From IMG/VR virus record IMGVR_UViG_3300027821_000008, positions 1-60,898 of that record: a stretch of 60,898 nucleotides of DNA; one strand, 5' to 3'. Both the position numbers and the translations under genes were made by a program. This DNA comes from a virus. This document shows positions 9,059-59,571 of this stretch, one piece after another. How positions within the stretch are numbered: position 1 is the stretch's first letter; the number at the start of each line of letters is the position of its first letter. Under the pieces are notes generated by a model. That model made no database searches and was not told the DNA's origin. It saw nothing but the letters and a program-made list of their open reading frames with translations.

Positions 9059-9733
9059 ATGATAATTGTCCCCGGCAAATATTATGTTTATGCTCACTAT
9101 ACATTGGATGGCGAGCTATTTTACATTGGGAGTGGCAAGTCGCATCGGCCATCCACATCTGAGGGGCGCAATGATCTGTGGACCATTGTGGCAAAAAATG
9201 GCTTTATCGTTCGTGTGCTAAATGAATTTGATACCAAGGCGGAGGCTCTCTGGTGGGAAAACATTTTAATAAGAAAAAACCAAAAAGCGCTAGTAAATAA
9301 ACGAGAGGCAACAGGAGAAGATCACTTTAATTGGGCGACCAAGTGGTCAGAAGAGCATAAAGAAAAATTATCGAAAGCAAAGCTTGGAAAAAAACAATCC
9401 GAAGAACATAAAAGAGCGATAGCCAAGGCCTTAACCGGAAGAAAAAGGTCGGACGCAGAAAAGGCGGCGATATCTCGAGGGCACACCGGAAAAATTCTAA
9501 AAGAGGAAACAAAAAGATTGCTTAGCGAAATAAATTCTGGAGAGCGCAACCCAAGATATGGCGTTCCGATGTCTGATGACGCAAAAAGAAAATCGTCCGA
9601 ATCGCAGAGAGGCAAACCAAAATCAAAAGAAACCCGCCTCAAAATGTCCAATTCAGCCAAATTACGATGTGCCAAAAAGAAGTTGGAAATGGAACAAGCC
9701 CGCCCAAATATAGACGATCACAAGGATTCCTAA
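9059..9733 (+). CDS. GIY-YIG homing endonuclease with NUMOD3 repeats, 224 aa
   Basis: GKYYVYAHYTLDGELFYIGSGK near residues 6-27 is a GIY-YIG core, with the conserved downstream E and N. From about residue 95 there are several copies of the NUMOD3 DNA-binding module (SEEHKEKLSKAKLGKK and relatives), as in phage intron or free-standing endonucleases. ATG 9059 immediately follows the terminator tail. It is paralogous to the genes at 18094-18615 and 32305-32794. Its stop is directly followed by the TOPRIM gene. Confidence 0.85.
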   Translation: MIIVPGKYYVYAHYTLDGELFYIGSGKSHRPSTSEGRNDLWTIVAKNGFIVRVLNEFDTKAEALWWENILIRKNQKALVNKREATGEDHFNWATKWSEEHKEKLSKAKLGKKQSEEHKRAIAKALTGRKRSDAEKAAISRGHTGKILKEETKRLLSEINSGERNPRYGVPMSDDAKRKSSESQRGKPKSKETRLKMSNSAKLRCAKKKLEMEQARPNIDDHKDS

Positions 9734-14966: not shown

Positions 14967-15224
14967 ATGGAATTCTTGGCCTCAATGTATAGGCGGTGGA
15001 TTGTCTGGTTCAATTATGGTGGCAAGACAGTTAGCAAGTATCCGTATTACGAGGGGGCCAAGATGATCGTTGTGGTCAATGATGGAGTGTTCACGGCATA
15101 CCTGGACAAGTTTCCAGAGATAGTCGGGCATGGAGAGACAGAGTTTGATGCGAGCCTAGAGATGCAGTATGCATACAATGGCAAGCTGATGAGGGAGATT
15201 AGGCGTGGCAAAGAAAACTCTTGA
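14967..15224 (+). CDS. HicB-like small protein, 85 aa
   Basis: The segment MIVVVNDGVFTAYLDKFPEIVGHGETEFDASLEMQ has the strand-strand-helix rhythm of HicB antitoxin cores (dG-x-Y-xA-x-FPe-x-x-x-GeT-x-x-x-A). No HicA toxin partner and no added DNA-binding domain are seen. It starts two bases after clpA and overlaps the HNH gene by 20 bases. The HicB resemblance is weak and could reflect only the fold. Confidence 0.4.
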   Translation: MEFLASMYRRWIVWFNYGGKTVSKYPYYEGAKMIVVVNDGVFTAYLDKFPEIVGHGETEFDASLEMQYAYNGKLMREIRRGKENS

Positions 15225-15690
15225 AGAGCGCTTCTGGGAGAAGGTGGATGTGCGTGGTCCGGGTGATTGCTGGGAGTGGCTTTGCTGTAAAAGTGAAAAT
15301 GGTTATGGGCAAATTGCGATTAATGGAAAAACTATTAGGGCGCACAGAGTGTCTTTTGAAATAAATTTTGAAAAAAAGATTGATGTCGGACTTTATATTT
15401 TGCATTCCTGCGATAACCGCTCTTGCGTGAACCCATACCATCTCAGACAGGGAACTCATAAAGAAAATATGGGGGACCGACTGATGGGCGGCCCGTGGGC
15501 GAACGGTAGCAAAAAAAAGGCCGTCACTTATGCTGGCGCAGAGAAAATATGGGTAGGCGCCGAAGATGCCCATAGAGAAACGGGCGTTGGGCCTGAAAGC
15601 ATTTCTCGGTGCTGCAACGGTAAGCGCAAGTCAGCAGGAGGATTCAAATGGTACTTTGTAGACGAACAGAAAAAGGACAAACCCACATGA
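15205..15690 (+). CDS. HNH homing endonuclease, 161 aa
   Basis: The HNH_3-type core runs from about residue 47: RAHRVSFEINFEKK, then LHSCDNRSCVNPYHLRQGTHKENMGDR near 70-100, with the conserved H, N and second H. The last 30 residues (CCNGKRKSAGGFKWYFVD) are nearly identical to the C-terminus of the GIY-YIG protein at 18094-18615, so this DNA-contact module has moved between nuclease classes. The 3' end contains CAAACCC (15678). Confidence 0.85.
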   Translation: MAKKTLEERFWEKVDVRGPGDCWEWLCCKSENGYGQIAINGKTIRAHRVSFEINFEKKIDVGLYILHSCDNRSCVNPYHLRQGTHKENMGDRLMGGPWANGSKKKAVTYAGAEKIWVGAEDAHRETGVGPESISRCCNGKRKSAGGFKWYFVDEQKKDKPT

Positions 15691-15916: not shown

Positions 15917-16150
15917 ATGGCAACCCCATACATTAAGGTCACCCCACTAAATAGAATATCAAGTGCCCAATTTTATATCTCTAATATGAATGAATTAGAG
16001 ATTAGGAAATCTGCCGATAAGTGCCTGAGCTTATTTGGGTTTGGTGATTACTTGATACTTCATTCTGGGGATGGAAGAATTGAGGCTGAGCGGTGCATTG
16101 CCGTGGCAAGCCATACGACTGATGGCGTTTTGTACAGAAAGCCAATATGA
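15917..16150 (+). CDS. hypothetical protein, 77 aa
   Basis: Begins eight bases after the previous gene, and its stop overlaps the exonuclease start by four bases (ATGA), so it is likely translated together with it. The family is not recognised. Confidence 0.5.
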   Translation: MATPYIKVTPLNRISSAQFYISNMNELEIRKSADKCLSLFGFGDYLILHSGDGRIEAERCIAVASHTTDGVLYRKPI

Positions 16151-16788
16151 CAAAGAAAAGGCAAATAGTATTTGATACAGAAACTACAGGACTGTCCCCA
16201 AAATTCGGGCACCGTGTCGTTGATCTTGGCGCGGTTGAATTGATCGATGGAAAAAGGACCGGCAGGACTCTGCAATTCTATCTTAATCCACGTCGCGATT
16301 CCGACCCGAAGGCATTTGAGGTTCATGGATTAACCCGCGAGTTTCTGAGTGATAAGCCCGACTTCTCGCAGATTGCAGATGAGTTCATTCAATTTGTGAG
16401 TGGCGCAGAGGTGATTGCCCACAATGCCAAATTTGACGTGAGCTTTCTGGATGCAGAGCTAGAGAGCTGTCACAAAGAGCCGCTATGGAAACACGTTGAA
16501 AAGATTACAGACACGGTTGCCATGGCCCGCACAATAATTAAAGGGTCAGTCAGTCTTGATGTGCTGTGCGAAAGATATGGAATTGTTGTTGACCGAGAGA
16601 AGCACGGAGCGCTACTGGACAGCGAGATACTTGTTGATGTGCTTGGAAAATTAATTGAAGAGGCCGACAATGGCAAGGTGACGGCGGACGAACCCAAGAT
16701 TGAGTGGACCGCAAAAACGAAGGTTGTTTATGCCACAGATAGTGACAAGGATGAACATCTTAGGATATTGAAGAGCATTAGGGAGTGA
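16147..16788 (+). CDS. dnaQ: DnaQ-type 3'-5' proofreading exonuclease, 213 aa
   Basis: All three exonuclease motifs are present: ExoI FDTETTGLS at 9-17, ExoII IAHNAKFDVSFLD near 94-106, ExoIII KHGALLDSE near 156-164 with the catalytic His. It resembles the epsilon subunit of DNA polymerase III, which edits for DnaE-type polymerases that lack their own exonuclease; the phage DnaE is at 56054-59062. The E. coli-type clamp-binding QTSMAF motif is not seen. It is the last gene of the replication block, before a strong bidirectional terminator. Confidence 0.9.
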   Translation: MTKKRQIVFDTETTGLSPKFGHRVVDLGAVELIDGKRTGRTLQFYLNPRRDSDPKAFEVHGLTREFLSDKPDFSQIADEFIQFVSGAEVIAHNAKFDVSFLDAELESCHKEPLWKHVEKITDTVAMARTIIKGSVSLDVLCERYGIVVDREKHGALLDSEILVDVLGKLIEEADNGKVTADEPKIEWTAKTKVVYATDSDKDEHLRILKSIRE

Positions 16789-17881: not shown

Positions 17882-18097
17882 TTACTGGGGGAGTGTATCA
17901 TCCTTTTGTGTGGTGGTGTCGGTGGGGGCCGATGGTGCATTGACGTGTGATATTACGCCAACTGCACCCAAACAAACTAAAATTTCTTTCAGTACGTCAA
18001 CAAATGCAGCCACGGGAGTTAGATTAGCCAGGGCCAATCCAAGCCAGATCAGAACAACAAGTCCTGCCGCCCACATCTTGATGGGTATCGATTTCAT
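17882..18097 (-). CDS. two-span membrane protein, holin candidate, 71 aa
   Basis: Hydrophobic segments at about 8-26 and 33-52 are followed by a Ser/Thr/Asp-rich tail. Size, topology and position in the lysis region fit a holin, but the XhlA-like gene at 20155 is an alternative. The start overlaps the end of the GIY-YIG gene by four bases. The C-terminus may be extended by frameshift (see 17766-17881). Confidence 0.5.
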   Translation of the reverse strand: MKSIPIKMWAAGLVVLIWLGLALANLTPVAAFVDVLKEILVCLGAVGVISHVNAPSAPTDTTTQKDDTLPQ

Positions 18098-18615
18098 TCA
18101 ATTTCTCCTGATGAGTTAGGTTGGGTTTGTGTATCTACGAAATACCATTTAAATCCGCCTGCTGATTTGCGTTTACCGTTGCAGCACATGTGTATGCCGT
18201 TACGATTAACCCCGGTGTCTTGGGACGCCTGGTAAATTGAGTTAAAAATAATCTCTGAGCCAACATATGTAACTCTAATTGCCCTGGTTCCGCACGGGTG
18301 CGTCCTGTGCGACCCAATTCCGCTAAAAAAGCCTTTGTAGTTGCTTGGGTTTTTTGAAATATTAACTAACTGAGATTGATTTTCAACAATAACCCTTCTT
18401 TCTAGATCAAGTGCGTGTGATTTTTTATCAAATGAATCAAGCATTCTAACCGTATAGCCATGCGATGCCATCTGCCACCACTCATTGCTGCGCTCTTTTT
18501 CTGAGCAAATGCGAGATGAATTGCCCATGCCCACATAGAACAATACGCCATCTAACGTGTAATGCCCATACACGTAGTATTTGCCTGGAATGATCAGAAT
18601 GCCGTCACTCACCAT
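18094..18615 (-). CDS. GIY-YIG homing endonuclease, 173 aa
   Basis: The core IIPGKYYVYGHYTLDGVLFYVGMGN lies near residues 8-32, with the downstream Arg and Glu. It is paralogous over the catalytic domain to 9059-9733 but lacks NUMOD3 repeats. Instead it ends in the CCNGKRKSAGGFKWYFVD module shared with the HNH gene at 15205-15690. ATG 18615 overlaps the upstream gene by 11 bases; GTG 18612 is an alternative. The 3' end carries GGGTTTG at 18123. Confidence 0.85.
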   Translation of the reverse strand: MVSDGILIIPGKYYVYGHYTLDGVLFYVGMGNSSRICSEKERSNEWWQMASHGYTVRMLDSFDKKSHALDLERRVIVENQSQLVNISKNPSNYKGFFSGIGSHRTHPCGTRAIRVTYVGSEIIFNSIYQASQDTGVNRNGIHMCCNGKRKSAGGFKWYFVDTQTQPNSSGEIE

Positions 18616-41727: not shown

Positions 41728-42240
41728 TCAATTAATCAATAGCTTTATTATTTCTTCAGTTATGCCATAATCCTCAGCCAATTCTTTAATTGTTGACTTT
41801 TTGGAATAATATCTTGCGTAGATTTCGCAAATCTGAGCCTGCTTTAGATTGCCTAATTTTTGTGCAGATAAGAGCCTCTTTGTCTCTGTTGTGTCACAGC
41901 TTGCCGAAGTTCTTTTTTTTGCTAATTTTCTATCGGCATAGCTTTTGCTGCGACCAACATTGGCATTAACCAGGTGCTGCCAGTGCGTTGCGATCAAAGA
42001 TGCCTCAAGCTCAAATGCCTCTTTTTCTTGTGAATCCGAGAAAACCGCAATAATTGACACCATGTATCCATCAGCAGCCGCGGCCTTCCATGAGTTTAGG
42101 CGACCTATGTTGGAATATGCCCTAGATAGCCTCCCTTTACCAATATAGAATGGCACGTCTTCGTTGTGTTTAAAATGAGCGTAAACACAAAAAGAATCGC
42201 TATCAGCCGTAAAGCAAAAATCATTAATTTTATTTTCCAT
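41728..42240 (-). CDS. GIY-YIG homing endonuclease, 170 aa
   Basis: The core FCVYAHFKHNEDVPFYIGKGRLSRAY lies near residues 12-37, followed by W and E positions of the family. The C-terminus has a helix-turn-helix-like end (STIKELAEDYGITEEIIKLLI). ATG 42240 was preferred to an upstream TTG. It is directly joined to the HNH gene, so two homing genes sit in tandem between head genes. Confidence 0.8.
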   Translation of the reverse strand: MENKINDFCFTADSDSFCVYAHFKHNEDVPFYIGKGRLSRAYSNIGRLNSWKAAAADGYMVSIIAVFSDSQEKEAFELEASLIATHWQHLVNANVGRSKSYADRKLAKKRTSASCDTTETKRLLSAQKLGNLKQAQICEIYARYYSKKSTIKELAEDYGITEEIIKLLIN

Positions 42241-42244
42241 GATT

Positions 42245-42739
42245 TCAACTATTTGCAAATGGAATGATTGACTTGAGGGCTTGTTTGAATTCTTCGTCAG
42301 ACATGGACAGCTTGGCCGAATTTACCCAATGGCATACCCATCTGCAATTATTCTTTGTATATCCTTTTGACGGATCAATTCGATCGATTGATGGGGAGAG
42401 TGGGTTTGGACCAGTCCACGATCTGATTGATGGTCCGGACACAAGCTCTGCGCCAGTTATTGCGCATACGCCGGAATATGTCATCTCTGCCCAGTCGTCG
42501 TCTAAATTAAACTGTTGAGATGATTTATCGGACCTAGTCTTTGCGCCTCTGATTATGTGCGACCACGGCCTGGCCGAGTATGATTTTTTGTGTCTTTCTG
42601 AGTCGCAAATAACGCAGCAACCATTACTTGTATAGCGGCTATTTCCGTGCCCGAATTTACATTCCATTCCGTCGTAAAATTTCAGACCCTGAGCAATTGC
42701 CTCTTTGCGACTAATGATTTTTTTATCACTCACCGCCAA
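42245..42739 (-). CDS. HNH endonuclease with zinc finger, 164 aa
   Basis: N-terminal CKFGHGN...CCVICDSERHKKS is a four-ligand finger. The nuclease core is YSGVCAITGAELVSGP...PSIDRIDPSKGYTKNNCRWVCHWVN near 88-138, with D-R-I-D and N-C-R-W as in HNH enzymes of this subgroup. ATG 42739 overlaps the head morphogenesis stop by 14 bases. Confidence 0.8.
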   Translation of the reverse strand: MAVSDKKIISRKEAIAQGLKFYDGMECKFGHGNSRYTSNGCCVICDSERHKKSYSARPWSHIIRGAKTRSDKSSQQFNLDDDWAEMTYSGVCAITGAELVSGPSIRSWTGPNPLSPSIDRIDPSKGYTKNNCRWVCHWVNSAKLSMSDEEFKQALKSIIPFANS

Positions 42740-45028: not shown

Positions 45029-45820
45029 TTACTTCGCCCTGGTTAATCCCTTGATTCCGGCCGAACTCCATGAATGACAGTCATTGCACTGGAATCTTGC
45101 AAATGACTGACTCAATGTATGTCGCTCTCCACGACGCTGCAAATTCTTAGAGCCGCATGATGGGCAAGAATGATGCAGGTCTCTTTCCGCTTTGTGCAGA
45201 TTAATATTCGGGTGATTCTTGTACCACGGCCTAAACAACAAGTAAAGCTCCTCTGTTGATAGAACGTCAAATTCATTGTATACGCGCATCTCTCTTTGAG
45301 CCTCCGGATTGCGCGCCAGAAACTCAGTCCAAAGCGACATGCCAGGAAACTTTTTGTGCGAGTATTTCTTGTACTTTGTGCAAAGCTTATCGCTCATATA
45401 TTCAAGTTTATTGCTTGTGAATCTGAACGCACTCTTTGCCATCTTCTTTGTGTCGATGGTAATATATGGCCTTGGTGGCGGCAATCCATGCTGAAGAAAT
45501 CTTGCGTTGGCAATCTTAATATCGAAAGAGTCGGAATTCTGCCCAAGAATAATATCTGCCTCGTCAAACAATTTCCAAAGCTTTTGAATTATAGCCTTGT
45601 CGTCTCTTTGGTTTTTTTGAAGGAATGTGTCTGCATACACCATCTCAGACTTTTTATCTCCAACCCATTTTGCAGCAAATGAAAGAACAGAGGAGTCAAC
45701 CTTTATCTGATTGAGTCCAATGTTCTGATCCCACAGAGACCATACATACGCCTCAATAGGGCATAATTCGATATCAAAGCACAGAATCTTGATGCCGCTG
45801 GAGTTTTTTGCTATTGCCAT
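45029..45820 (-). CDS. DEDD 3'-5' exonuclease (RNase H fold) with zinc ribbon, 263 aa
   Basis: The motifs are LCFDIELCPIEAYVW (DxE) near 13-27, ILGQNSDSFDIKIANAR near 91-107 and VYNEFDVLSTEELYL near 181-195. The C-terminus has CPSCGSKN...CNDCHSW, a zinc ribbon. Predicted nuclease acting on DNA or RNA ends. It lies in the packaging cluster behind IbrB and has its own perfect promoter. Confidence 0.8.
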   Translation of the reverse strand: MAIAKNSSGIKILCFDIELCPIEAYVWSLWDQNIGLNQIKVDSSVLSFAAKWVGDKKSEMVYADTFLQKNQRDDKAIIQKLWKLFDEADIILGQNSDSFDIKIANARFLQHGLPPPRPYITIDTKKMAKSAFRFTSNKLEYMSDKLCTKYKKYSHKKFPGMSLWTEFLARNPEAQREMRVYNEFDVLSTEELYLLFRPWYKNHPNINLHKAERDLHHSCPSCGSKNLQRRGERHTLSQSFARFQCNDCHSWSSAGIKGLTRAK

Positions 45821-45861: not shown

Positions 45862-45890
45862 ATTATACCACACGACTATCGATTTGTCAA
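45862..45890 (-). promoter_or_regulatory. perfect promoter before the DEDD exonuclease
   Basis: Minus strand TTGACA (45890-45885), 17 bases, TATAAT (45867-45862). It begins just behind the IbrB stop codon and would drive exonuclease, portal and head genes. Confidence 0.8.
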
Positions 45891-45893: not shown

Positions 45894-46394
45894 TTATTGG
45901 TCTGCTTCAGAAAATTCTCTGTCAATAAACAAAGAGGCCAGCCCGCTAAGTTGCTTTAATCGCAATAACTCATCCTTATCCATACCAATATTCTTGCGAA
46001 TCCATCCGTCTGACGCCCCGGACGCAACAAGCTCAGCAACGATATTGGTCATAAGGTCGATCGAGTGACTTCCGCGTGCGCGATTGTGGCGAATCGTAGA
46101 TGCCATGCGACCCTCAATCGGCTTATCAATAACAACCACCGGCAATAGACCACCTTCTCGCTCAAATATACGCTTGCTGGTCTTCAGCGTTGTGTACCTG
46201 TGAAATCCGTCAACAATTTCGTACATATCCTCGTCAGGATAGTAATAGCACACAACTGGCATCGTATAGCCGTCTTCCCATATGCTGGTTTCCAGAAGTT
46301 TCATTTCTGGCGCAGCAACCGAGTTTGGGTTATACGCGTTTGCCCTAATTTTTGCCAGGGGGACTGCGCGAACATTATAAACTGGAGACGTCAT
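45894..46394 (-). CDS. ibrB: IbrB-like ParB/sulfiredoxin-domain protein, 166 aa
   Basis: ParB-type core: AVPLAKIRANAYNPNSVAAPEMKLLETSI, then YEIVDGFHRYTTLKTSKR near 58-75 and ASTIRHNRARGSHS near 98-111, matching IbrB proteins that pair with IbrA. The start overlaps the IbrA stop by four bases (ATGA), so the two are coupled. Its fold relates to ParB and DndB-like proteins; the biochemical role of IbrAB is not established. Confidence 0.8.
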   Translation of the reverse strand: MTSPVYNVRAVPLAKIRANAYNPNSVAAPEMKLLETSIWEDGYTMPVVCYYYPDEDMYEIVDGFHRYTTLKTSKRIFEREGGLLPVVVIDKPIEGRMASTIRHNRARGSHSIDLMTNIVAELVASGASDGWIRKNIGMDKDELLRLKQLSGLASLFIDREFSEADQ

Positions 46395-47695
46395 TTCGAT
46401 ATTTCCTTTTTGCGAGCGTATTTCTTTAGGGCCTCTTTGCGAAGATCGCGTTGATGCTTGGTAATTGCGAATCCCAATCTCTTACAGGTGATGTCGTTTG
46501 CAAGAATCACGGAGCAGAATTTCTTCCACGTAGGAACATCGCACTTTGTGTAAATTGCAGGAAGGTCGTCAAGAATCTTGTTGAACTTCACTACGTGCTT
46601 TTCTCCGCGACCTCTCTTGCTAAACTTCTCTGTATTTACAGCGGCTCCAGCAGGTATTTCTTTGATGTGCTGCGGCAGCATTGGAGAGCCGGTGTAATGC
46701 CAATACTTAATGTACTTTACGAACCGAGACATATAATTGTCTCTTGTGGCGGTCGGAAGCGTCTTCATCAAGAACTTGCAGTACGACTTCCACGTGTGTC
46801 CAGCAGGTAGCGTCATGTCGGCCGAACCAATTGCCTTGGTTCCACAGTAGATATTGCCGAAATTAACGCCACTAACCCTGTCAAGAAGCCTGCCCCAAGT
46901 CTCTGGTTCAATGATTCTGAACATATTCAGGCCGGCTTTTTGTTCATCTCCGAACGGCTCGCAGATGCGCATCTTTCCAAGCGCAACGCCAGCCTTGTAA
47001 AACTGATCGTATGTCTCGTTGTATGGCGCCGCAGTTTTTGCGTGATATGTCCAAATATCCTCTACAGTCCAATCGTAAATTGGGTAGAAGTTGACAGTCA
47101 GATCGGTTTTTACTACCGAATACTTTACATTCTCGAAGCGAGAAACGTCATCCCTATTCAGGGCGCGCCAACGATTCAAGCTCTCCTGCGTTCTGATGCC
47201 AACCAGTCCGGCGCACTTGCCGCCATTTTCTTTTGCGAACCAGTCGCCGAATTCAGTAATGAAGTCCTCGAATGTGATTCCTTCGTGCCAGAATCTGCCG
47301 AATGGGTTGTTATCGCTGTTGATAACATATTCAGACTCAGGCATTGGGCGAACCCATTTATCCTTCTTTTCTGGGTCCCAGAACTTCCACCAGGTTTCAT
47401 GCATGCTAACCGTATTCCAGGAGCGCATAGGAAGGCATATCCACATCGGCGTCGCAAGATGTGCATTATCCATCATAAGCTTCCAGGAGAAGTCATGAGT
47501 GCGCTTGTAGTGACCCTCAAGATCAATGAACAACGTTGTGCATTTTTTGCCAGCGCCGGCCGGGCTGCGTAGAAAGTCGTACACCAGATTAACAAGTGTT
47601 CCGCTATCCTTGCCGCCACTAAATGCAATATAGACATTGTCAAATTTAGAGAATATATACTCTATTCTCTGTTTGGCCGCGTCATAAACATTCAT
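46391..47695 (-). CDS. ibrA: IbrA-like PAPS-reductase family protein (DUF3440), 434 aa
   Basis: The PP-loop ATP-binding motif YIAFSGGKDSGTLVNL lies at 22-37. Conserved family features follow: LFIDLEGHYKRTHDF, the long W-rich block TPMWICLPMRSWNTVSMHETWW, GLVGIRTQESLNRWRA near 165-180 and PIYDWTVEDIWTYHA. Related to PAPS reductases and DndC, which handle sulfur on DNA. Overlaps the terminase stop by one base (TAATG). IbrA/IbrB pairs occur in phages and islands; a DNA or RNA sulfur chemistry role is a hypothesis. Confidence 0.85.
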   Translation of the reverse strand: MNVYDAAKQRIEYIFSKFDNVYIAFSGGKDSGTLVNLVYDFLRSPAGAGKKCTTLFIDLEGHYKRTHDFSWKLMMDNAHLATPMWICLPMRSWNTVSMHETWWKFWDPEKKDKWVRPMPESEYVINSDNNPFGRFWHEGITFEDFITEFGDWFAKENGGKCAGLVGIRTQESLNRWRALNRDDVSRFENVKYSVVKTDLTVNFYPIYDWTVEDIWTYHAKTAAPYNETYDQFYKAGVALGKMRICEPFGDEQKAGLNMFRIIEPETWGRLLDRVSGVNFGNIYCGTKAIGSADMTLPAGHTWKSYCKFLMKTLPTATRDNYMSRFVKYIKYWHYTGSPMLPQHIKEIPAGAAVNTEKFSKRGRGEKHVVKFNKILDDLPAIYTKCDVPTWKKFCSVILANDITCKRLGFAITKHQRDLRKEALKKYARKKEISK

Positions 47696-49206
47696 TACAT
47701 GCCCTCCATATTTCCGAGTCCAATTGACACTCCATATGCAAATGCATCCACAAGATCATCAACTTGATTGTTTCTGCCAAGCTGATATTGAAATACCTGA
47801 GACATGAAATGATTTCTTGTTGAGTTCTTGAATTTCACTTGCTTGTTGTATGCGTGATCTGACAGCATTACATTTCGCAGACCCATATATCCTGTGATGG
47901 ATATTGCCCTGGTGTCCTTGCCAAGCGATGTGAACTTGGAAGAGATTGCGTTTAGCTGCCAGCCCTTCTTGGCGGCAAAAGACAGCATGGCGGTGCCAGC
48001 GGCCTTATCCTCAACCCAAATCCCAGCGCTCCCATATCTCGCCCTGCACGCAACGCTTAACTCCTCTAGGCGTGTAAGCTGCTGCGGAATCCAGTCCGTC
48101 ATCATCTCAGAGTCAAGCTGAACAACATCCCAGTCTAGAACGATCAGCGGTGTGCCGAAGTGCATTGATCTGGCAAAGAACACGATTGCGGTTCCGTCAT
48201 TCTTGTCTCCGGCCTTAAATGCTGTATCAAGGCATGCATAAACCGTATCACATGTAACTGGATATTGGCACGGAAGACCCTCGTAGCTAAGAACATCTGC
48301 TGAATTAAATAGAACGCCACCCTCTATCTCTGGTCTCTGCTGATACAGCGATGCCCATGTCCGTTTGTCGCCAAGTCTATATTGATCCCAGTGCTGAGAG
48401 TCGAACCACTCAGGCCAAAGAGATTCGCCAATCTCGCGACCCATTGGATCATTTGGCTTTTCGCAGATAGCAGGAACGCACAAAACGTCCCACATTGTGC
48501 CATCTCGACACAAAATCTCTCCAGACTCGCCCTTCCAGTCTTCTGGAAGCAGTCTGCCGGCGATATCATTTATCGACCATCTCGTCATAATCAGAACCTG
48601 AGACCCGCCAGGAATCAGACGAGACTTAATGGAGTCTGAATATTCTGCCCAAACAGAATCTTGTACAGACATAGAGTCTGCCTCTTCGCGATTCTTGACC
48701 GGGTCATCAATTATAACCATATCGGCGCGCTTACCGGTAATGCCGGTCTTGATACCTGCCGGTGTAAAGCTGCTTCCATTTTCAAGCTCAAGTCCGAGAT
48801 CAGACGAGAATGAACCCATCTGCGGCTTTGTCCCGGTCAATGTCTGATATCTCGGCGATTCAAAGATTTTCATCAGCTTCTTGGCATTATAGTCCGCATG
48901 ATCCTTGTTATAGGTTGCGAAGATAACGCGATAGCCAGGATTCATCCCCATAAAGTATGCCGGGGCAACCCATGACGCATAAGTTGATTTGGCAGAACCT
49001 GGGGGGAAGAAGATCATCAAGCGCCCGTACGGCTTTTCCATCGCATCTTTAAGCTTGTTCAGTATAAGCTCGTGGTGCGTGGCAACGCCTGCGCCATCCG
49101 GCCTGCCTGGCACGTATATCTGTCTTGCGAACTCGCAGATATCCTGTCTCGCCTTGCGACGAGAAAGAACCTCTTGAGCTGCCTTTTGTTTTGCGCTTAA
49201 AGTCAT
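47695..49206 (-). CDS. terL: terminase large subunit, 503 aa
   Basis: ATPase domain with MIFFPPGSAKSTYASW near 63-78 and Walker B ADMVIIDDPVKNREEA near 160-175. The nuclease domain shows VYACLDTAFKAGDKNDGTAIVF and the C-terminal NNQVDDLVDAFAYGVSIG with catalytic Asp residues. ATG 49206 overlaps the decarboxylase stop by four bases. It cuts and pumps DNA into the prohead. Confidence 0.9.
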   Translation of the reverse strand: MTLSAKQKAAQEVLSRRKARQDICEFARQIYVPGRPDGAGVATHHELILNKLKDAMEKPYGRLMIFFPPGSAKSTYASWVAPAYFMGMNPGYRVIFATYNKDHADYNAKKLMKIFESPRYQTLTGTKPQMGSFSSDLGLELENGSSFTPAGIKTGITGKRADMVIIDDPVKNREEADSMSVQDSVWAEYSDSIKSRLIPGGSQVLIMTRWSINDIAGRLLPEDWKGESGEILCRDGTMWDVLCVPAICEKPNDPMGREIGESLWPEWFDSQHWDQYRLGDKRTWASLYQQRPEIEGGVLFNSADVLSYEGLPCQYPVTCDTVYACLDTAFKAGDKNDGTAIVFFARSMHFGTPLIVLDWDVVQLDSEMMTDWIPQQLTRLEELSVACRARYGSAGIWVEDKAAGTAMLSFAAKKGWQLNAISSKFTSLGKDTRAISITGYMGLRNVMLSDHAYNKQVKFKNSTRNHFMSQVFQYQLGRNNQVDDLVDAFAYGVSIGLGNMEGM

Positions 49207-50801
49207 TCGCAGCAATCTATAAAATATTTGCCATCAATTTTTCGGACGCCATGCACTGGCAATATATCTCTTCCGAGTTTATCATTTAGAGCCAAACAGG
49301 CAGAAATGTATTTAATTACAACCTCTGAGAATACTTCTCCTGGCATGATAACAGGAATTCCCGGTGGGTATGGCGCGACAATTACGCACGATATTTGTCC
49401 GTGTAATTCAGCCAAAGGCACGGGGATGCTTTTGCCAGATATCAGCGCATTATGCGCCCTGCGAGGAATCATCTCTTGGTCCGGCAAAATCGTATACGCC
49501 CAATTGCAGATGTTGATTATATCATACTCTGCAAGAGTCGTGTTAATTTCTTTTGCCGCTTGTTGCATTCCGCCAACATCACGATTGTATACAGAACAAA
49601 ACTCTGACAATGAATTAATCAACATGTCAACATAAGGACGAGGCGTTCCGACGGTAATTAATGCCAAAAACGAGTATAGGCCAACCTTTTCAACGTTAAT
49701 TCCTCGAAACACAAGGTGATCGCTAACGATGGCAGCTGGAACATTTCCGCATGTTATTGTGACCTTGGTAACGTCGTGAATTTGGAGTCCCCTCTCAAAT
49801 TGCGGAAAAGACACTCTAAAAAAGAAGTCGCTATCTTTTTCTGCGAGAAAGCCAATCTTATCTCGAATCATCATGGCAACCTTCCTTGCCTCTGCCACCA
49901 GATCACGACCAGACTCTTCCATTGCCCTGGCATTCATATCACATGAGGCGATCAGCGGATAGCTTGGTGAGGTGGTCGAGTGCATAAGATATGACTGATC
50001 AAGCGAAGGCCCATTATGTTTTCTTACGCCATCCTTAACTAAAATTTGCGATGACTGAGTGAGCGCCAACGATGTTTTATGTATTGACTGCGAAGAAAAG
50101 ATGGGGCACACATTATCAACGACATCCATTGCCCTGTATCCCCTATACCATCCAGAGAAATACGTATGAGAAGACCACGCCTCATCAAAATGAATCGCGT
50201 GCATCATAGAAGATAGCTCGTCAGATATTCTTTGGCAATTATACATAATTCCGTCGTATGTTGCCTGTGTTAATACCAAGACGGTCCGCCTATCTCCGCC
50301 CCATCCGATAAGTCGCGATTTTCCGATAGCGCTACATATATTTTCTTTTGTGAGCTGACTAGAGTCGACGCCAAGAATCTCTCCATTATTCCCGCGAGAT
50401 GGAACTAGGTACACCGGGATTGCGCCAGACTCTATTATGGCGTGCATAACAGACTTGTGACAATTTCTGTCAACAATAGCAATATCACCTTCAGACAAAA
50501 CTGAAGACACGATTATTCTGTTTGACGCAGAGGTGCCACCAACAGAGAAGTATAGCTTATCTGCTCCATACACAGAAGCGGCATAACCCTCTGATTCGGC
50601 AATGCCTCCTGAGTGTGTAAGAAGCTGCCCAAGCTGATCTACGGAATTGCATGCATCGGCAAGAAATAGATTCTTTCCAAAGAAGGACAAAAAATCAGCT
50701 GAGGCCTGACTATGAGAAAGCGCATTGCCAGAGTTATGACCAGGGCAATGAAGTGATGTTGGCGATCCGTCAGCGTATTTTTTAAGCTCTTTGAAAAACA
50801 T
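49203..50801 (-). CDS. Lys/Arg/Orn-type PLP decarboxylase, 532 aa
   Basis: Fold-type I decarboxylase of the LdcI/AdiA/SpeF group: DRNCHKSVMHAI at 111-122, HFDEAW at 204-209 (Asp for the PLP ring nitrogen), SQSIHKTSLALTQS at 237-250 with the Schiff-base Lys 242, and the C-terminal APYPPGIPVIMPGE motif. The N-terminal wing domain of the enterobacterial enzymes (about 130 residues) is missing; the protein begins near the PLP domain. Product would be cadaverine, agmatine or putrescine; the substrate cannot be told by eye. It lies between HD hydrolase and terminase, overlapping both. Confidence 0.85.
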   Translation of the reverse strand: MFFKELKKYADGSPTSLHCPGHNSGNALSHSQASADFLSFFGKNLFLADACNSVDQLGQLLTHSGGIAESEGYAASVYGADKLYFSVGGTSASNRIIVSSVLSEGDIAIVDRNCHKSVMHAIIESGAIPVYLVPSRGNNGEILGVDSSQLTKENICSAIGKSRLIGWGGDRRTVLVLTQATYDGIMYNCQRISDELSSMMHAIHFDEAWSSHTYFSGWYRGYRAMDVVDNVCPIFSSQSIHKTSLALTQSSQILVKDGVRKHNGPSLDQSYLMHSTTSPSYPLIASCDMNARAMEESGRDLVAEARKVAMMIRDKIGFLAEKDSDFFFRVSFPQFERGLQIHDVTKVTITCGNVPAAIVSDHLVFRGINVEKVGLYSFLALITVGTPRPYVDMLINSLSEFCSVYNRDVGGMQQAAKEINTTLAEYDIINICNWAYTILPDQEMIPRRAHNALISGKSIPVPLAELHGQISCVIVAPYPPGIPVIMPGEVFSEVVIKYISACLALNDKLGRDILPVHGVRKIDGKYFIDCCE

Positions 50802-51358
50802 TAGATTGCTCCGGTGATTTCCTGAAACCTTTTCATGAACATGTATGCTGCCTCTCTTCTAGAAATAGGTTCTATCGTATCACGGAATGGCTCAAAATTA
50901 CCATACTTGTCAAAATATTTTTTCTGGCCCTCAGAGAGAACGTCTCGCACTTCCGTAACAAGCGCACGCATATCCGAAGTCACTATTTCGCTATGGTTTG
51001 CGGCAATGCCTATTCCATATTTTGCGAATATTGCATCAGTTACACTGCCCTCAATATCAGAATACTGAGAAAGGCGTCTTTTTAGCGGAGATGGCACATC
51101 GCAAATAAAGGCTTCTGAGGAATCATGCATTAATGCGGCAAGAGCAAATTCGCGTGGCACGTTCTGCGAAACAATAACAGAGTGCTGGGCCACGGAATAA
51201 TGCATGTAGTTTTTAACGTGACCATTAAATCTACATACGCCAGACAATCCATAGGCAATATCCTCTATTGAGAAATTGTTTGCCGATATATCGGATAGAC
51301 TAAAAAAGTCACCTGAGTGTAGACTCATTCCGTCATATGTAAGCGTTTTGTCGGTCAT
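50801..51358 (-). CDS. HD-domain phosphohydrolase (YfbR-like), 185 aa
   Basis: HD motifs: HYSVAQHSVIVSQ near 54-66 (His), ALMHDSSEAFICDVPSPLKRRL near 76-97 (HD pair) and a later Asp in TSDMRALVTEV. It resembles YfbR-type deoxynucleotidases and the phage DatZ family that remove dNMP or dATP. Overlaps the decarboxylase start by one base and ends one base after the terminase small subunit region. Probable role in nucleotide pool control. Confidence 0.8.
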   Translation of the reverse strand: MTDKTLTYDGMSLHSGDFFSLSDISANNFSIEDIAYGLSGVCRFNGHVKNYMHYSVAQHSVIVSQNVPREFALAALMHDSSEAFICDVPSPLKRRLSQYSDIEGSVTDAIFAKYGIGIAANHSEIVTSDMRALVTEVRDVLSEGQKKYFDKYGNFEPFRDTIEPISRREAAYMFMKRFQEITGAI

Positions 51359-51359
51359 T

Positions 51360-52223
51360 TTACTCTCCGCTGGGCGATGGCCCTAAAATCCTCATAAGTT
51401 CTTCGTCACTCATTTCATCAACATTGGATATTGCAATTGACTCACCAACAAGTCTCTCTTCGTTTTTATCGAACACTCCGTAGGCATTCCTTTCCAAGGA
51501 AATCATGGTTTTGAGCGTGTCTGATAATTGTCTAAACGAATTAACTCTGCTTGGAGTATCAATTACCTTTTTGAAAATCTGAGACATCTTATCTCTTGCA
51601 TCTTCTGAATTTTCTTCCATCAGCTCAGCAAGTTGTTGAAGCTCTTCTTTCATTACCGTCTGTCCTTCAAGCTCCTCCAGAAGCTGATCAGACAATGCAC
51701 GATACCTTGAAATTGTTTGTCTGTGAGACAGCTTCATTGCCGCAACCGCCCTTGCAGAAAACTCAAGCATTTCATCGTCAATCAGAATTCCGCCTGGCGT
51801 TGCCCTGGACTGATCTCTTAGCGCAATTGCCTCAGATTTTGCAGACTCCGTTTGCTCTGCCCTATCTCTTGCAGCCTGCTCCCTTTCACGTATAATCTGA
51901 TCGGCTCGTTCGTCAACTCTTTTTTTCAGGTCTCTTTTCCATCCAAGAGTCTTGGCTTTTTTGTTTATCGAAGTTTCGCTTACCCCGTGCTTTTTTGCAA
52001 TCTCTCTTACCGTAAGAGTAGCCATTCTGTAGTCTGACTCAACTGCATGCCAGAACTCTGGCCCCCTACCAACCCCTTCACGATATCCCCCGCGACCAGA
52101 TGATCCCACTTTTTTAACTATCTTTCCGCGTATGTCAGACGCATCAACCGCCTTCTTGAGGCGGTCTGTATCTGCATCATCAAATACAACGTCTGTTATG
52201 TCGTCATTATTTTTGTTTGGCAT
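51360..52223 (-). CDS. terS: terminase small subunit, 287 aa
   Basis: Helix-turn-helix region LTVREIAKKHGVSETSINKKAKTLGWKRDL near 70-100, then a long coiled coil (RADQIIREREQAARDRAEQT...) and a C-terminal part with MISLERNAYGVFDKNEE, typical of DNA-recognition subunits of terminases. Directly precedes the HD hydrolase in the operon; the large subunit is three genes on. It selects viral DNA for packaging. Confidence 0.8.
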   Translation of the reverse strand: MPNKNNDDITDVVFDDADTDRLKKAVDASDIRGKIVKKVGSSGRGGYREGVGRGPEFWHAVESDYRMATLTVREIAKKHGVSETSINKKAKTLGWKRDLKKRVDERADQIIREREQAARDRAEQTESAKSEAIALRDQSRATPGGILIDDEMLEFSARAVAAMKLSHRQTISRYRALSDQLLEELEGQTVMKEELQQLAELMEENSEDARDKMSQIFKKVIDTPSRVNSFRQLSDTLKTMISLERNAYGVFDKNEERLVGESIAISNVDEMSDEELMRILGPSPSGE

Positions 52224-52449
52224 TTATCTCACCATGAAACAGGATTTTTCCAGACTTCTCAACAAGGATTGTGCGCGGCAAATAGTCTGCGAAATAATAC
52301 GCACCGAAATCAATAATGTCGTCTAAATTAGAAAACATATGATCCTCTCTCTCGACAATGCCAATTGTATCGCCGTTGCGATCAAATGTGGTTATTGTAA
52401 CTTCCACCTCTTTGTGGCGTTGTTTAAAAAACGGGTCGAGAAATTTCAT
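52207..52449 (-). CDS. hypothetical protein, 80 aa
   Basis: Overlaps the terminase small subunit start by 17 bases. Beta-rich start (EVTITTFDRNGDTIGIVERE) followed by a helix and strand. A GGAC site precedes ATG 52449. No known family. Confidence 0.55.
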   Translation of the reverse strand: MKFLDPFFKQRHKEVEVTITTFDRNGDTIGIVEREDHMFSNLDDIIDFGAYYFADYLPRTILVEKSGKILFHGEINAKQK

Positions 52450-52467: not shown

Positions 52468-52818
52468 TTATTGAGACTTCAGTTTCGCAATATATTCGTC
52501 GTATGTCAAGTTATTTTTTTCGGCCTCGATCTCAGTTTGCAACAAAGCAAGAATTCTCCATGCTGCTTTTGCTGTGTGCCTTAATCCGTCAGAGTCCAGC
52601 TTTCCGTGATCCATGAAGTGACGTATTGCGCTATCTGCGTGCTGAGTGCTTTTTCCCTTTGACCAATGAAGTGGCTGTCCGGGATTATGCTGATCGTTGC
52701 CTACCTGGGAAACTCTAGACACAGCCGCTAAAGCGTCAGGAAAATATGCAAGAACTCCAGTTGCAATCGGAGTCGCTTTTCTTTCTGAGTCATCGCTGGA
52801 AATTGTCAAATTAGACAT
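52468..52818 (-). CDS. dATP/dGTP diphosphohydrolase-like protein (DUF5664), 116 aa
   Basis: Matches the family pattern KATPIATGVLAYFPDALAAVSRVSQVGNDQHNPGQPLHWSKGKSTQHADSAIRHFMDHG through to DGLRHTAKAAWRILALLQTE. This group is annotated as dATP/dGTP diphosphohydrolase in phages and would adjust dNTP levels. ATG 52818 overlaps the ClpP stop by one base. Confidence 0.8.
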   Translation of the reverse strand: MSNLTISSDDSERKATPIATGVLAYFPDALAAVSRVSQVGNDQHNPGQPLHWSKGKSTQHADSAIRHFMDHGKLDSDGLRHTAKAAWRILALLQTEIEAEKNNLTYDEYIAKLKSQ

Positions 52819-53429
52819 TATTCATCCTCGCCATTGTTAATGTCTGACAGATTGTAAATAACCCTATCAAGGAATCCATATTCAACGGCCTCTTGCGGAG
52901 ATAAGAATAGGTCCCTGTCGCAGTCCTTCACTATTTGTTTGAGCGTCTTACCTGTGTTTGCAGACATAATTTCAAACAATCTCTTGTTCAGGTATTCTGT
53001 TTCCTTTAGATCAACTCTCATGTCAACAATTGTTCCACGCGTTCCACTGCTAACTTGGTGAGCCATAATCCTGCTGTTTGGCAATGAGAAGCGCTTTCCT
53101 TTGGCTCCACCTGATGCCAAGAAGCAACCCATACTCATGGCGATTCCAGAGACAACCGTTACAACGTCATTGCTGATCGCTTGCATCATGTCGTATATTG
53201 CAAGACCAGAATAAACGCTGCCACCTGGGCTATTGATAATGAGCGTGATATCCTCTTCCGGGTCTGATGCATTCAGGTACATGAGCTGCATGATAATTGC
53301 GTGCGCGCTATCGTCGTCAACGTCTCCGTTAAGAAAAACTATCCTCTCCTTAAGCATTCGAGAGTGCATGTCATAACTTTTCTCTCCGCGACCAGATTTT
53401 TCAATAACTACAGGAACGATAGTTGACAT
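52818..53429 (-). CDS. clpP: ClpP serine protease, 203 aa
   Basis: Full-length match in layout to bacterial ClpP: PVVIEKSGRGEKSYDMHSR at the N-terminus, INSPGGSVYSG near 65-75, and the triad Ser 99 (GIAMSMGCF), His 124 (NSRIMAHQ) and Asp 173 (CDRDLFLS), offset by two from mature E. coli ClpP. ATG 53429 follows AAGGA; a start at 53459 lacks a site. It probably assembles with the phage ClpA (12667-14964). Alternative role: capsid maturation, less likely because a DUF2213 protease is present. Confidence 0.9.
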   Translation of the reverse strand: MSTIVPVVIEKSGRGEKSYDMHSRMLKERIVFLNGDVDDDSAHAIIMQLMYLNASDPEEDITLIINSPGGSVYSGLAIYDMMQAISNDVVTVVSGIAMSMGCFLASGGAKGKRFSLPNSRIMAHQVSSGTRGTIVDMRVDLKETEYLNKRLFEIMSANTGKTLKQIVKDCDRDLFLSPQEAVEYGFLDRVIYNLSDINNGEDE

Positions 53430-53485
53430 GCTTATTTCCTTTTTGGTGGGCTTGTTCATTTCAAATATGCCTAGAACGCATCAGA

Positions 53486-54110: not shown

Positions 54111-54146
54111 TAGGGAAATAATGCCAACCTTCCCGCCCATCTTCAA
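54111..54146 (-). repeat. 36-bp leader repeat, proximal copy
   Basis: Identical over 36 bases to 54510-54545. On the minus strand it begins about seven bases after a perfect -10 box, so it is the first transcribed sequence. It can fold GGGAA...TTCCC. Possible antitermination or stability element. Confidence 0.85.
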
Positions 54147-54152: not shown

Positions 54153-54181
54153 ATTATATCATGCGTTTATCGATTTGTCAA
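54153..54181 (-). promoter_or_regulatory. late promoter, proximal copy
   Basis: Minus strand TTGACA (54181-54176), 17 bases, TATAAT (54158-54153), followed directly by the 36-bp repeat. Reads into the packaging and structural block. Confidence 0.85.
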
Positions 54182-54509: not shown

Positions 54510-54545
54510 TAGGGAAATAATGCCAACCTTCCCGCCCATCTTCAA
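54510..54545 (-). repeat. 36-bp leader repeat, distal copy
   Basis: Second identical copy of the 36-bp leader, 399 bases from the first, again starting right after a perfect -10 box on the minus strand. Confidence 0.85.
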
Positions 54546-56053: not shown

Positions 56054-59000
56054 ATGTCGTTCGTTAATCTTGCTGTATTCTCTAACTTATCTGCCCCTAT
56101 CGGCGGGGTGGATATTTTGCGCGCTATCGCATTCGCAAAGAATGACGGACAGGAGTCGATTGCGATCATAGAAAATATGTCAATGTTCGGCCTGCTACAG
56201 TTCCACAAATTGGCACTGCGCGAAGGTGTCAAGCCAATTACCGGAGCAAGATTGACATTTGGCGATCACCGAGCAATCTTCATTGCCAAGAATCATAGCG
56301 GATTCCAATACATATCTCAGGCAATATCAGCCGGCAGGCTGTCAGAGTCAGGCCATTGCTATTTGGCAGACATGAGTCAGTCAAATGACGTTGTCGTTAT
56401 TGCAGAGGCCGCTGACGCAGACTTCATCGCTGCTCTCGCAGGAAAATTCCATCACACATACCTGTCATCTGAATTCGTAACATCTTCTGGTCACGCATCG
56501 CTGGCGCCAGTTGCTGCTGTTCGTTCGGCATACTTTGTGCAGGCAGGGGAGCACGAAATGTCCGTGGCGCTTGCAAGCATACGCACGGCACAAGACATCC
56601 TAAAGCCAAACGATTCTATCTCTGTATCTGCGGCAATGACGAGTTCATCTTTCGCGCATAGCTCGCTTAAGCACATCGACGGAGCAATTGAAAACGCCAG
56701 GCAAATCGAACTGATGAGCAATTTCGTCCTGGAGCAAAGAAAGCCAGAGCTTCCGGAGTTTGGAGGACTTGACGAGAAATCCCAATTTGCACTTCTGGCA
56801 AACAATGTAAAAGAAGGATTGCAGTCTATCGGCAAGATAGATGACGAAGAATACAAGTCGAGGGCAAGATTTGAACTCAAAGTAATTCGCGAGATGGGGT
56901 TTGTTGGCTATCACTTAATCGTCGCAGATTATATCAAGTTTGCAAGAGACTGCGGAATTGGCGTTGGGCCTGCGCGTGGATCGTCTGCTGGTTCGCTCGT
57001 TTGTTACTTGATCGGTATCACACAAGTTGACCCAATAAAACACAGCCTCCTGTTCGAGCGCTATCTCAATCCTGATCGCGTCAGCTATCCTGATATCGAC
57101 ACCGACTTCGCATCTGCTGGCCGTGATCGCGTAATCGACTATCTTCTGGAAGAATATGGCGATGGTCACGTTTCCAAAATATCAACGATCGGCACATTCG
57201 GCGCAAAGTCTGCAATCAGGGCCGCATGCAGGTATCTTGGCATTGATTTTGCTCAGTCTGGCAAGATTGCTGACCTGGTGCCAAATTCACCGAACAAGAC
57301 AGTGTTGCTTGGTCGCAAAGACACAACCGAGAAATTTTGGAATGAAGTTTCTGTTGTCCCAGCACTGAGGCCAGTTGCCGAAATCGCATCTTTCATCGAA
57401 GGGCAGTGCGCCTCCATCGGTACACACGCCGCAGGCATAATTATCTCTGGCTCTCACATCAGCTCAATCGCCCCGCTAATCCCTGTCGAAGGCAGTATAG
57501 TCCCAGCAGTCGGACTGGATAAAGACGATGCGGAGAAGCTTGGTCTGGTTAAGATGGACTTGCTTGGCCTGTCAACACTTGACCTTCTTGCTCAGGCAGA
57601 AAGCGATATCAAGGCAAAGGTTGACGAAGAATTCTCTCTGAGAGAGATTGACATCAATGATGATCTTGCGCTGAGCATGTTGCGCCGCGGAATTACGAAG
57701 AGTATATTTCAGTTTGAAAGCCAAGGGATCACCAACCTGATCGCACGCGTAGAGCCAAAGCAATTTGAGGACATCGTTGCTGTGACATCCCTGTACCGCC
57801 CAGGGCCAATGGAACTATCCGAAGACTTCGTGGCAAATACGGGCGTCGCCCCACATCCACTATTACAAAATATTACAAGTGAGACGAGGGGGATTATCAT
57901 CTATCAGGAGCAGGTCATGAAGGCCGCACAGATTGTTGGCGGATTCACACTGGCAGAAGCAGACTTGATGCGTCGCGCTATGGGCAAGAAGGATGTCGAG
58001 CAGATGGGGGCCATGCGGTCTAAATTTGTTAGCGGGGCAAAGAAAAATAACGTATCGGAAGAAGATGCAAATCACGTATTCGATTTGTTGGATCGATTCA
58101 GTGGATACGGCTTTAACAAAAGTCACGCTGTTGCGTATTCGATTATCACAATGCAAACCGCCTACGTCAAGGCGCATTACCCTGAAATATTCTACGCGGC
58201 TGCAATGCAGACCAATATCGGCGACGGAGAGAAGATCGCTGCGCTTGCAAAAGAGGCCAGGGACAGCTTCGGCATCGAGGTGCTTTCGCCATGCATCAAC
58301 TCATCTGACTATCTATTCACGGCATCAAAGGGAAAAATTAGATATGGATTGAGTGGTGTATTCGGTATCGGCTCAGAGGTCATTGAGAATATATGCTTTG
58401 ATCGTGAGATTCGCGGCGAGTACAGAGACCTCAAGGAATTCATTGATAGGCTTCCAAAGATCGCCGTTCTGAAGAAGGTTGCTACCGGCCTGGCTATGAG
58501 CGGAGCATTGGATGCGTTCGGTGTGTCGCGGTCTGCAATTATCGCAACGCTGGATGAAATCGGCAAGCCAAAAAAGAAAAAGGCGAAGAAGGATTTGTTT
58601 GGGGCTGACGAAGAGGAATCATTCTCATATGTCGAGGCGGAGCAGCTGACACCAAAAGAGATATACGCTGGAGAGGTGAAGTACACTGGGATCGCATTCA
58701 GCGCGTCACCGCTTGGTATGCTCACGCGCAAGTTCAGGAAATTCGCTCCACTGACCATAGATAAGGTTGTCCCATCGGATAGGGCCATCCAGTCGGTATG
58801 CGGCGAGATCAAATCGGTGCGCAAGATCAAGACGAAGAATGGTGATGATATGTGCTTTCTGACCATTGAAGACGAAAGTGGCAGCCTGGATGCTGTTGTT
58901 TTTCCTCGCACATACGCAACAATGCCGCAAGTGAAGAAGGGCGACTTCGTGCTTGCTAAGGGCAAGGTAGATCGCGGACAAAACAAGGATGGCGCGAAAC

Positions 59001-59062
59001 AATTGATCATAGATAAATTACTTGATCAAAAGGGTGCGTTGCAGCTGATTGGAGGAGCGTGA
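56054..59062 (+). CDS. dnaE: DNA polymerase III alpha subunit (DnaE type), 1002 aa
   Basis: C-family polymerase. An N-terminal PHP-like domain (1-~200) has lost its metal-binding HxH (NLAVFS). The palm carries PARGSSAGSLVCYL near 305-318 and the catalytic Asp residues D349 and D351 in PDIDTDF, with D502 in VKMDLLGL. Helix-hairpin-helix near 765-775; KKDLF near 845-849 fits a beta-clamp motif; an OB fold follows at ~915-990. Bacterial alpha is ~1160 residues, and here the tau-binding C-terminal domain is absent. GGGGG site before ATG. Confidence 0.95.
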   Translation: MSFVNLAVFSNLSAPIGGVDILRAIAFAKNDGQESIAIIENMSMFGLLQFHKLALREGVKPITGARLTFGDHRAIFIAKNHSGFQYISQAISAGRLSESGHCYLADMSQSNDVVVIAEAADADFIAALAGKFHHTYLSSEFVTSSGHASLAPVAAVRSAYFVQAGEHEMSVALASIRTAQDILKPNDSISVSAAMTSSSFAHSSLKHIDGAIENARQIELMSNFVLEQRKPELPEFGGLDEKSQFALLANNVKEGLQSIGKIDDEEYKSRARFELKVIREMGFVGYHLIVADYIKFARDCGIGVGPARGSSAGSLVCYLIGITQVDPIKHSLLFERYLNPDRVSYPDIDTDFASAGRDRVIDYLLEEYGDGHVSKISTIGTFGAKSAIRAACRYLGIDFAQSGKIADLVPNSPNKTVLLGRKDTTEKFWNEVSVVPALRPVAEIASFIEGQCASIGTHAAGIIISGSHISSIAPLIPVEGSIVPAVGLDKDDAEKLGLVKMDLLGLSTLDLLAQAESDIKAKVDEEFSLREIDINDDLALSMLRRGITKSIFQFESQGITNLIARVEPKQFEDIVAVTSLYRPGPMELSEDFVANTGVAPHPLLQNITSETRGIIIYQEQVMKAAQIVGGFTLAEADLMRRAMGKKDVEQMGAMRSKFVSGAKKNNVSEEDANHVFDLLDRFSGYGFNKSHAVAYSIITMQTAYVKAHYPEIFYAAAMQTNIGDGEKIAALAKEARDSFGIEVLSPCINSSDYLFTASKGKIRYGLSGVFGIGSEVIENICFDREIRGEYRDLKEFIDRLPKIAVLKKVATGLAMSGALDAFGVSRSAIIATLDEIGKPKKKKAKKDLFGADEEESFSYVEAEQLTPKEIYAGEVKYTGIAFSASPLGMLTRKFRKFAPLTIDKVVPSDRAIQSVCGEIKSVRKIKTKNGDDMCFLTIEDESGSLDAVVFPRTYATMPQVKKGDFVLAKGKVDRGQNKDGAKQLIIDKLLDQKGALQLIGGA

Positions 59063-59571
59063 TGGCTAAGCCTAACAATGACAAATATCTAGACTTTATT
59101 TCAAGATATAAAGTGAGTGAAGATGGGACGTGTGTGAGTCCTAGTGGGAAAATTCTATCTTATGGCGATAGAGGGCACGGGTATATCAGTGTCGGACATT
59201 ATAGCCCCAACGACAAAAAGGCCACGCAAGTCTTGCTTCATAGGGTGCTTGCCACTAAATTCCTGTCAAACCCACTCAGCCTTCCATTTGTAAATCATAT
59301 TGATGGAAACAAACTAAATAATTCGCTAGATAATTTGGAGTGGTGTACAAGCTCGCAAAACCAAAAACATGCGTATAGCTCCGGTCTAAAGACCCCGGCA
59401 AAGAATTGTGGAGGATACGGGAAAAAATGCATCAGGGAAACTGTATCTGGGTTTGTATATGAGTCTATCGCGTCAGCGTCCAGAAGTCTTGGCATCGATG
59501 TATCCTCTATCTCAAAATACATGAGATGCAAAGGATACCGCTTCGAATTTGTCAACGAGTCTGACAAATAA
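59062..59571 (+). CDS. HNH homing endonuclease with NUMOD modules, 169 aa
   Basis: ATG 59062 overlaps the polymerase stop (TGATG). Nuclease core: LHRVLATKFLSNP, then VNHIDGNKLNNSLDNLEWCTSSQNQKHA near 75-105, with H-x-D-G-N and N-L-E-W typical of phage HNH enzymes. The last ~45 residues are a NUMOD1-type DNA-binding module (VSGFVYESIASASRSLGIDVSSISKYM). Inserted directly behind the polymerase gene. Confidence 0.85.
   Translation: MAKPNNDKYLDFISRYKVSEDGTCVSPSGKILSYGDRGHGYISVGHYSPNDKKATQVLLHRVLATKFLSNPLSLPFVNHIDGNKLNNSLDNLEWCTSSQNQKHAYSSGLKTPAKNCGGYGKKCIRETVSGFVYESIASASRSLGIDVSSISKYMRCKGYRFEFVNESDK

Follow-up and report, generated by a model that had tools for sequence, protein, structure and literature searches.

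A wing-less ornithine/lysine/arginine decarboxylase gene between the two terminase genes of an uncultured tailed phage

The genome of an uncultured tailed phage, IMG/VR virus record IMGVR_UViG_3300027821_000008, carries a divergent gene of the Orn/Lys/Arg decarboxylase family between the genes for the small and large terminase subunits (terS and terL). Such a gene belongs to a known class, that of phage auxiliary metabolic genes; what is new is a phage-borne, wing-less, extended-form decarboxylase inside the terminase pair. The window analysed here is the entire record of 60,898 bases, in which no exact terminal repeat was found.

The decarboxylase gene is part of a cassette of six ORFs, all on the minus strand and at the coordinates proposed in a first-pass annotation of this DNA. 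From upstream to downstream they encode the small terminase subunit (51360–52223; phrog_1206, E 6e-41), an HD-domain nucleotidase/phosphohydrolase of the YfbR/YfdR kind (50801–51358; phrog_318, E 1e-54; PDB 2gz4, E 1.5e-9), the wing-less AAT-fold decarboxylase of 532 aa (49203–50801; PF01276, E 6.5e-93; PF03711, E 5e-19), the large terminase subunit (47695–49206; phrog_38, E 1e-75), IbrA, a PAPS-reductase-fold PP-loop protein with a DUF3440 domain (46391–47695; PF01507; PF11922, E 4e-55), and IbrB, its ParB/sulfiredoxin-fold partner (45894–46394; phrog_2159, E 8e-76). The annotation had described these genes as consecutive, with short overlaps and a single one-base gap, and this is seen directly in the sequence, the identities being borne out by profile search. 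The last base of the terS stop is 51360 and the HD ATG lies at 51358, leaving one base between them; the HD/decarboxylase and terL/IbrA junctions are TAATG at 50801 and 47695, respectively, and the decarboxylase/terL and IbrA/IbrB junctions are ATGA at 49203–49206 and 46391–46394. The GC3 values of the decarboxylase (0.41), HD (0.39) and terS (0.40) genes differ from those of terL (0.51) and IbrA (0.55), a contrast too small for dating insertions.

The tight packing reaches upstream beyond the cassette, where, also on the minus strand, the gene for the 80-aa protein g80 (52207–52449) overlaps terS by 17 nt, and a ClpP-type protease gene (52818–53459; PF00574, E 5e-67), placed upstream in the predicted transcription unit of the cassette, overlaps g116 (52468–52818) by 1 nt. 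The 116-aa product of g116 has its best match in phrog_27780, of unknown function, and matches weakly the dATP/dGTP pyrophosphohydrolase family. ClpP was not seen near terS in the terminase/portal relatives examined. A ClpA/B-type ATPase (phrog_4871) is encoded far from it on the plus strand (12667–14964), and the two are possibly parts of a phage-owned Clp protease.

Two minus-strand sites, at 54181 and 45890, match the sigma-70 consensus at 12 of 12 positions, are 83% identical to each other over 29 nt, and flank ten genes (g93, ClpP, g116, g80, terS, HD, decarboxylase, terL, IbrA and IbrB). The upstream site (54153–54181) is a candidate promoter by consensus match only, reading TTGACA-17-TATAAT with a TG before the second hexamer, and a further consensus site lies at 54577. 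The ten genes from g93 to IbrB are probably on one predicted transcript that would start at about 54,150; since the downstream site (45862–45890), before the polB-type exonuclease and portal genes, is a perfect consensus starting 4 nt past the IbrB stop, those genes probably constitute a separate transcription unit. The region shows no enrichment of consensus sites as a class (27 sigma-70-like sites found against 21.4 ± 5.2 expected), and the shared transcript therefore stays a prediction. The consensus promoters at 54181 and 54577 are each followed closely by one copy of a 36-nt direct repeat whose copies are identical (54111–54146 and 54510–54545), so that both predicted transcripts would have the same leader; the repeat had no match in Rfam, where only the tRNA was matched. 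An imperfect 16-nt inverted repeat (45841–45856/45866–45881) overlaps the −10 region of the promoter that precedes the polB exonuclease gene and is possibly an operator. The exonuclease gene it precedes (45029–45820, minus strand), placed between IbrB and the portal, is one of two separate DNA-polymerase exonuclease-subunit genes in the record, the other lying at 16147–16788 on the plus strand, besides a replicative polymerase at 56054–59062.

The relatives of this phage point to a conserved packaging backbone. A TerL alignment that included a Microcystis phage TerL retrieved 80 IMG/VR loci and a portal alignment 77 more, and 98 of these loci, corresponding to 94 distinct contigs by name, contain both terL and the portal gene. 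The first-pass annotation stated that terminase subunits normally adjoin each other or the portal, and the relatives agree: terS overlaps terL in 31 of the 33 loci with a recognisable terS, and terL and the portal are separated by no more than 57 nt in 74 of 98. In the window, terS and terL are not adjacent, about 2.15 kb of HD and decarboxylase sequence lying between them. The better relatives show the order terS, terL, portal, head morphogenesis, g39848 and putative capsid, and the window, with the cargo genes removed, has this same order. No match to the decarboxylase, HD, IbrA, IbrB or ClpP was found in the 98 loci, and PF01276, phrog_318 and IbrA were absent from 14 whole relative records, 12 of them of 45–70 kb, the IbrA search having had no positive control. 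Conserved co-occurrence of the enzymes with the terminases, the check that the annotation had proposed, was thus found neither near the terL of the relatives nor, for the three enzymes searched, in the whole records. Since the relatives have the terminases without the decarboxylase, HD, IbrA and IbrB, the genomic half of the outcome that the annotation had named as speaking for an accidental link is what was found.

In those relatives that have an insertion at the junction between terL and the portal, it is frequently an HNH or GIY-YIG endonuclease gene (L013, L019, L023, L114) or a structural-looking ORF, the endonucleases being consistent with a published finding that homing endonuclease genes are enriched close to terminase genes (PMC10448857). 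Many ORFs that by eye resemble free-standing HNH or GIY-YIG endonucleases are also present in the window (1366–2025, 9020–9733, 15205–15690, 18094–18615, 41728–42258, 42245–42739 and 59059–59571), two of them in the interval from the head-morphogenesis gene to g39848, which is usually free of such ORFs in the relatives. In another relative, L033, the terL ORF (8537–10885) encodes 782 aa, with about 240 residues separating two TerL-matching parts, possibly an intein or inserted domain.

The IbrA–IbrB genes of the window, a PAPS-reductase-plus-DUF3440 gene beside a ParB-like gene, have the composition of the pair of this name in prophages and phages, where the two genes likewise adjoin or overlap. 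The pair, which annotators label a co-activator of prophage gene expression, is an independent, mobile unit common in unrelated phages. The phage collection contained IbrA-like genes in 215 records, and IMG/VR had them at 61 loci; in 59 of the 61 loci IbrB adjoins IbrA, and in only 3 was a TerL of the window's kind detected in the fetched flanks. Streptococcus, Mycobacterium, Pseudoalteromonas, Microcystis and E. coli phages have the pair in early, replication or unrelated regions, whereas in the window it lies between terL and the portal. The window IbrB is 76–80% identical to that of two otherwise different phages (L172 and L173), which suggests recent horizontal movement of the pair; in L173 (10001–11766; IbrB 80% identical) the other genes look, by eye, very different and Bacteroidetes-like, which makes the conservation of the pair striking. 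The HD gene is ordinary phage cargo: no fewer than 256 phage records contain this phrog_318/YfdR-type hydrolase, for which Atu1052 is a solved relative.

Domains, catalytic residues and fold identify the product of the gene between HD and terL as an AAT-fold Orn/Lys/Arg decarboxylase, its activity being predicted. Both PF01276 (OKR_DC_1, 312 bits) and PF03711 (OKR_DC_1_C, 69 bits) score above cut-off, and T90, S91, H115, D206, W209, S239, H241, K242 (the Schiff-base lysine), T277, S278 and E371 are kept, as are PYPPG and GE. Relative to LdcC, K242, H241, S239, D206 and W209 align with K367, H366, S364, D330 and W333, and H115, T90, S91 and E371 with H245, T220, S221 and E526. Lysine is hinted at as the substrate, because E371 aligns with E526 of LdcI and the stretch EKVGLYS is closer to that of LdcA (EKTGLYS) than to AdiA. 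The AlphaFold2 model (pLDDT 86.7, pTM 0.89; low confidence at residues 1–25 and 46–53, including parts expected at the dimer interface) superposed in Foldseek on solved LDC, ADC and ODC structures with TM 0.82–0.87, the closest being LdcI, AdiA, LdcF, Adc and LdcA, with 0.84–0.87 for LdcI, AdiA and LdcA. The sequence is very divergent, its branch measuring 4.09 changes per column, and the best cellular matches among those listed, from a Methanomicrobiales archaeon and two Actinoplanes, are 34–35% identical. An intact enzyme of this family releases a diamine or agmatine.

In the family literature the ancestral form is short (about 480–490 aa), and the extended form carries a REC/wing domain at its N-terminus as well as eight or more insertions in the core (PMC8503589); the phage enzyme fits neither. 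It lacks the REC/wing domain, beginning where the wing ends in LdcI, whereas 83 of 85 cellular matches, among the matches listed, have an additional 100–290 aa upstream, the two exceptions being an ORF cut at an edge and one that is broken. Its core of 531 aa lies between the 434–481 aa of nine sampled ancestral enzymes and the 579–645 aa of sampled extended ones; most extended-specific blocks are kept, and parts of those near residues 331, 353, 410 and 494 are missing. With the extended forms the enzyme thus shares the catalytic core, the C-terminal domain, the PLP and catalytic residues and several of the insertions, but it is wing-less, shorter in the core, at most 35% identical to them among the matches listed, and phage-borne. 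The ancestral AAT-fold decarboxylases of the Bacillus SpeA type are wing-less too (PMC8503589), but the phage core is longer, keeps most of the extended blocks and is only 22–28% identical to theirs. A tree of the core places the phage sequence with the extended clade (SH-aLRT 100), and a position nested within this clade compared with one sister to all winged enzymes gave an AU p of 0.51. Secondary loss of the wing is favoured over ancestral lack, because losing a domain is a simple step and genes in phages tend to become shorter; the phage enzyme may also be a relic of a lineage between the short and winged forms, with the insertions and without the REC domain, as the same AU value would allow.

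Two peptide-pattern scans of 2.9 million viral contigs matched only L008 and L009, both rejected as phage-borne relatives since the matching sequence is host flank, namely an adiA beside a Mu-like prophage and a decarboxylase–antiporter pair beside a Gram-positive phage. The matches inspected in the phage collection were on host contigs or on unannotated wastewater or faecal contigs, and we infer host contamination. No PHROG match was obtained, and a library of predicted viral structures gave no specific match, the best being generic PLP-fold proteins at TM ≤0.50. As no close relative was found and the gene is known from one metagenomic record, there is a small chance that the locus is an assembly-specific oddity. 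A 2023 survey of viral polyamine enzymes detected no AAT-fold ADC in any virus and, among phages, no homologue of the AR-fold ODC (PMC9992855). Its functional enzymes are AR-fold PLP ODCs of eukaryotic viruses and small pyruvoyl-dependent SpeD homologues of phages; these polyamine enzymes likewise include virus-carried basic amino-acid decarboxylases, but they are AR-fold or pyruvoyl-dependent, unlike the AAT-fold enzyme of the window. No earlier report of such a phage decarboxylase was found in the literature searched, mostly outside subscription journals. The word 'undescribed', which the annotation applied to the cassette as a system, is thus right for the decarboxylase.

The account that we consider moderately probable as a whole, comprising two cargo junctions, a shared transcript and a free, diamine-making decarboxylase dimer, is that cargo genes have been spliced with near-zero spacing into the conserved backbone in which terS and terL are followed by the portal gene. 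One cargo would be the HD nucleotidase and decarboxylase between terS and terL; the other, between terL and the portal, would consist of the mobile IbrA–IbrB pair followed by the polB-type exonuclease with its own promoter. Co-transcription from ClpP to IbrB, starting at about 54,150, would cause the decarboxylase to be made together with the terminase, and most likely the enzyme makes a diamine late in infection. In LdcI the wing builds the ring that holds the decamer, ppGpp binds between neighbouring subunits, and a dimer suffices for the active site (PMC4832331), for which reason the wing-less enzyme should be active as a dimer and less regulated. In the infected cell this free PLP dimer would produce cadaverine from lysine, agmatine from arginine or putrescine from ornithine, outside the decamer- and ppGpp-based control known for the host LdcI, and the diamine would probably serve as a counter-ion for phage nucleic acid and in translation. 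Phages can benefit from putrescine (PMC11898732); no spermidine synthase or downstream polyamine gene was found in the record.

A stronger version, in which the decarboxylase is a dedicated packaging enzyme, coupled to terL, freed from host control by the missing wing and supplying diamine as the genome condenses, seems rather unlikely. The terL ATG lies within the ATGA that holds the decarboxylase stop and has no evident Shine–Dalgarno sequence, so that terL translation probably depends on that of the decarboxylase; this overlap gives co-expression and is not proof of a packaging role. The same arrangement fits hitchhiking, in which decarboxylase and HD would have no present role and be kept since their loss would disturb terL translation, and the extreme divergence and uniqueness of the decarboxylase agree with it; but the active-site residues, which should be the first to disappear from an enzyme not under selection, are all intact and the fold is complete, and this reading is judged unlikely. 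Protection of the infected cell, or weakening of host defence, through pH or a drain on lysine, arginine or ornithine rather than polyamine supply is suggested by the acid-stress enzymes LdcI and AdiA among the cellular relatives. Acid-resistance systems use an amino-acid/diamine antiporter, however, and no such gene was seen beside the decarboxylase, while the wing, on which the regulated decamer depends, is absent, making this role quite unlikely.

The first-pass annotation had gone further and read the four enzymes as one packaging-linked DNA-modification system, in which IbrA, IbrB, the HD hydrolase and the decarboxylase would put sulfur or amine groups on virion DNA. IbrA does have the PP-loop of PAPS reductases and DndC-like sulfurtransferases, with an intact SGGKDS motif, its fold suggesting ATP-pyrophosphatase chemistry, and all the genes are probably on one transcript. 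Phage phiW-14 carries putrescinyl-thymine, which would likewise tie diamine or ornithine chemistry to phage DNA, and literature cited in the same article discusses bound putrescine as an aid to packing in the phiW-14 head (PMC5977210). The phiW-14 route, through hydroxymethyluracil, needs a thymidylate-synthase-like enzyme, however, and neither PF00303 (thymidylate synthase) nor PF02511 (Thy1) was found in the record, which may be incomplete, although controls matched. IbrA resembles DndC weakly (E 2e-9 across some 70 residues), scoring 33 bits against a cut-off of 290 for the DndC equivalog profile; the DndE profile PF08870 gave no match in a search whose controls also gave none. Moreover, unrelated phages have IbrA–IbrB at sites away from the terminase and with no decarboxylase, and the terminase relatives lack all four enzymes. 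DNA modification by the cassette is accordingly very improbable, and the idea of one biochemical system is not supported; the polyamine supply also proposed for the cassette is possible for the decarboxylase alone.

These results caution against taking the tight overlap of genes in an operon as proof of a shared pathway. If the favoured account holds, a phage with a large PLP diamine-forming decarboxylase would have a new route to its own counter-ion supply, all the more as the gene lies between terS and terL, and would offer a direct test of whether packaging is affected by a diamine made in infection. The wing-less extended form is a natural version of an LdcI/AdiA-type enzyme without the ring-building domain and may inform the origin of the winged enzymes; if it is a relic, it would bear on which form came first, the question raised in PMC8503589.
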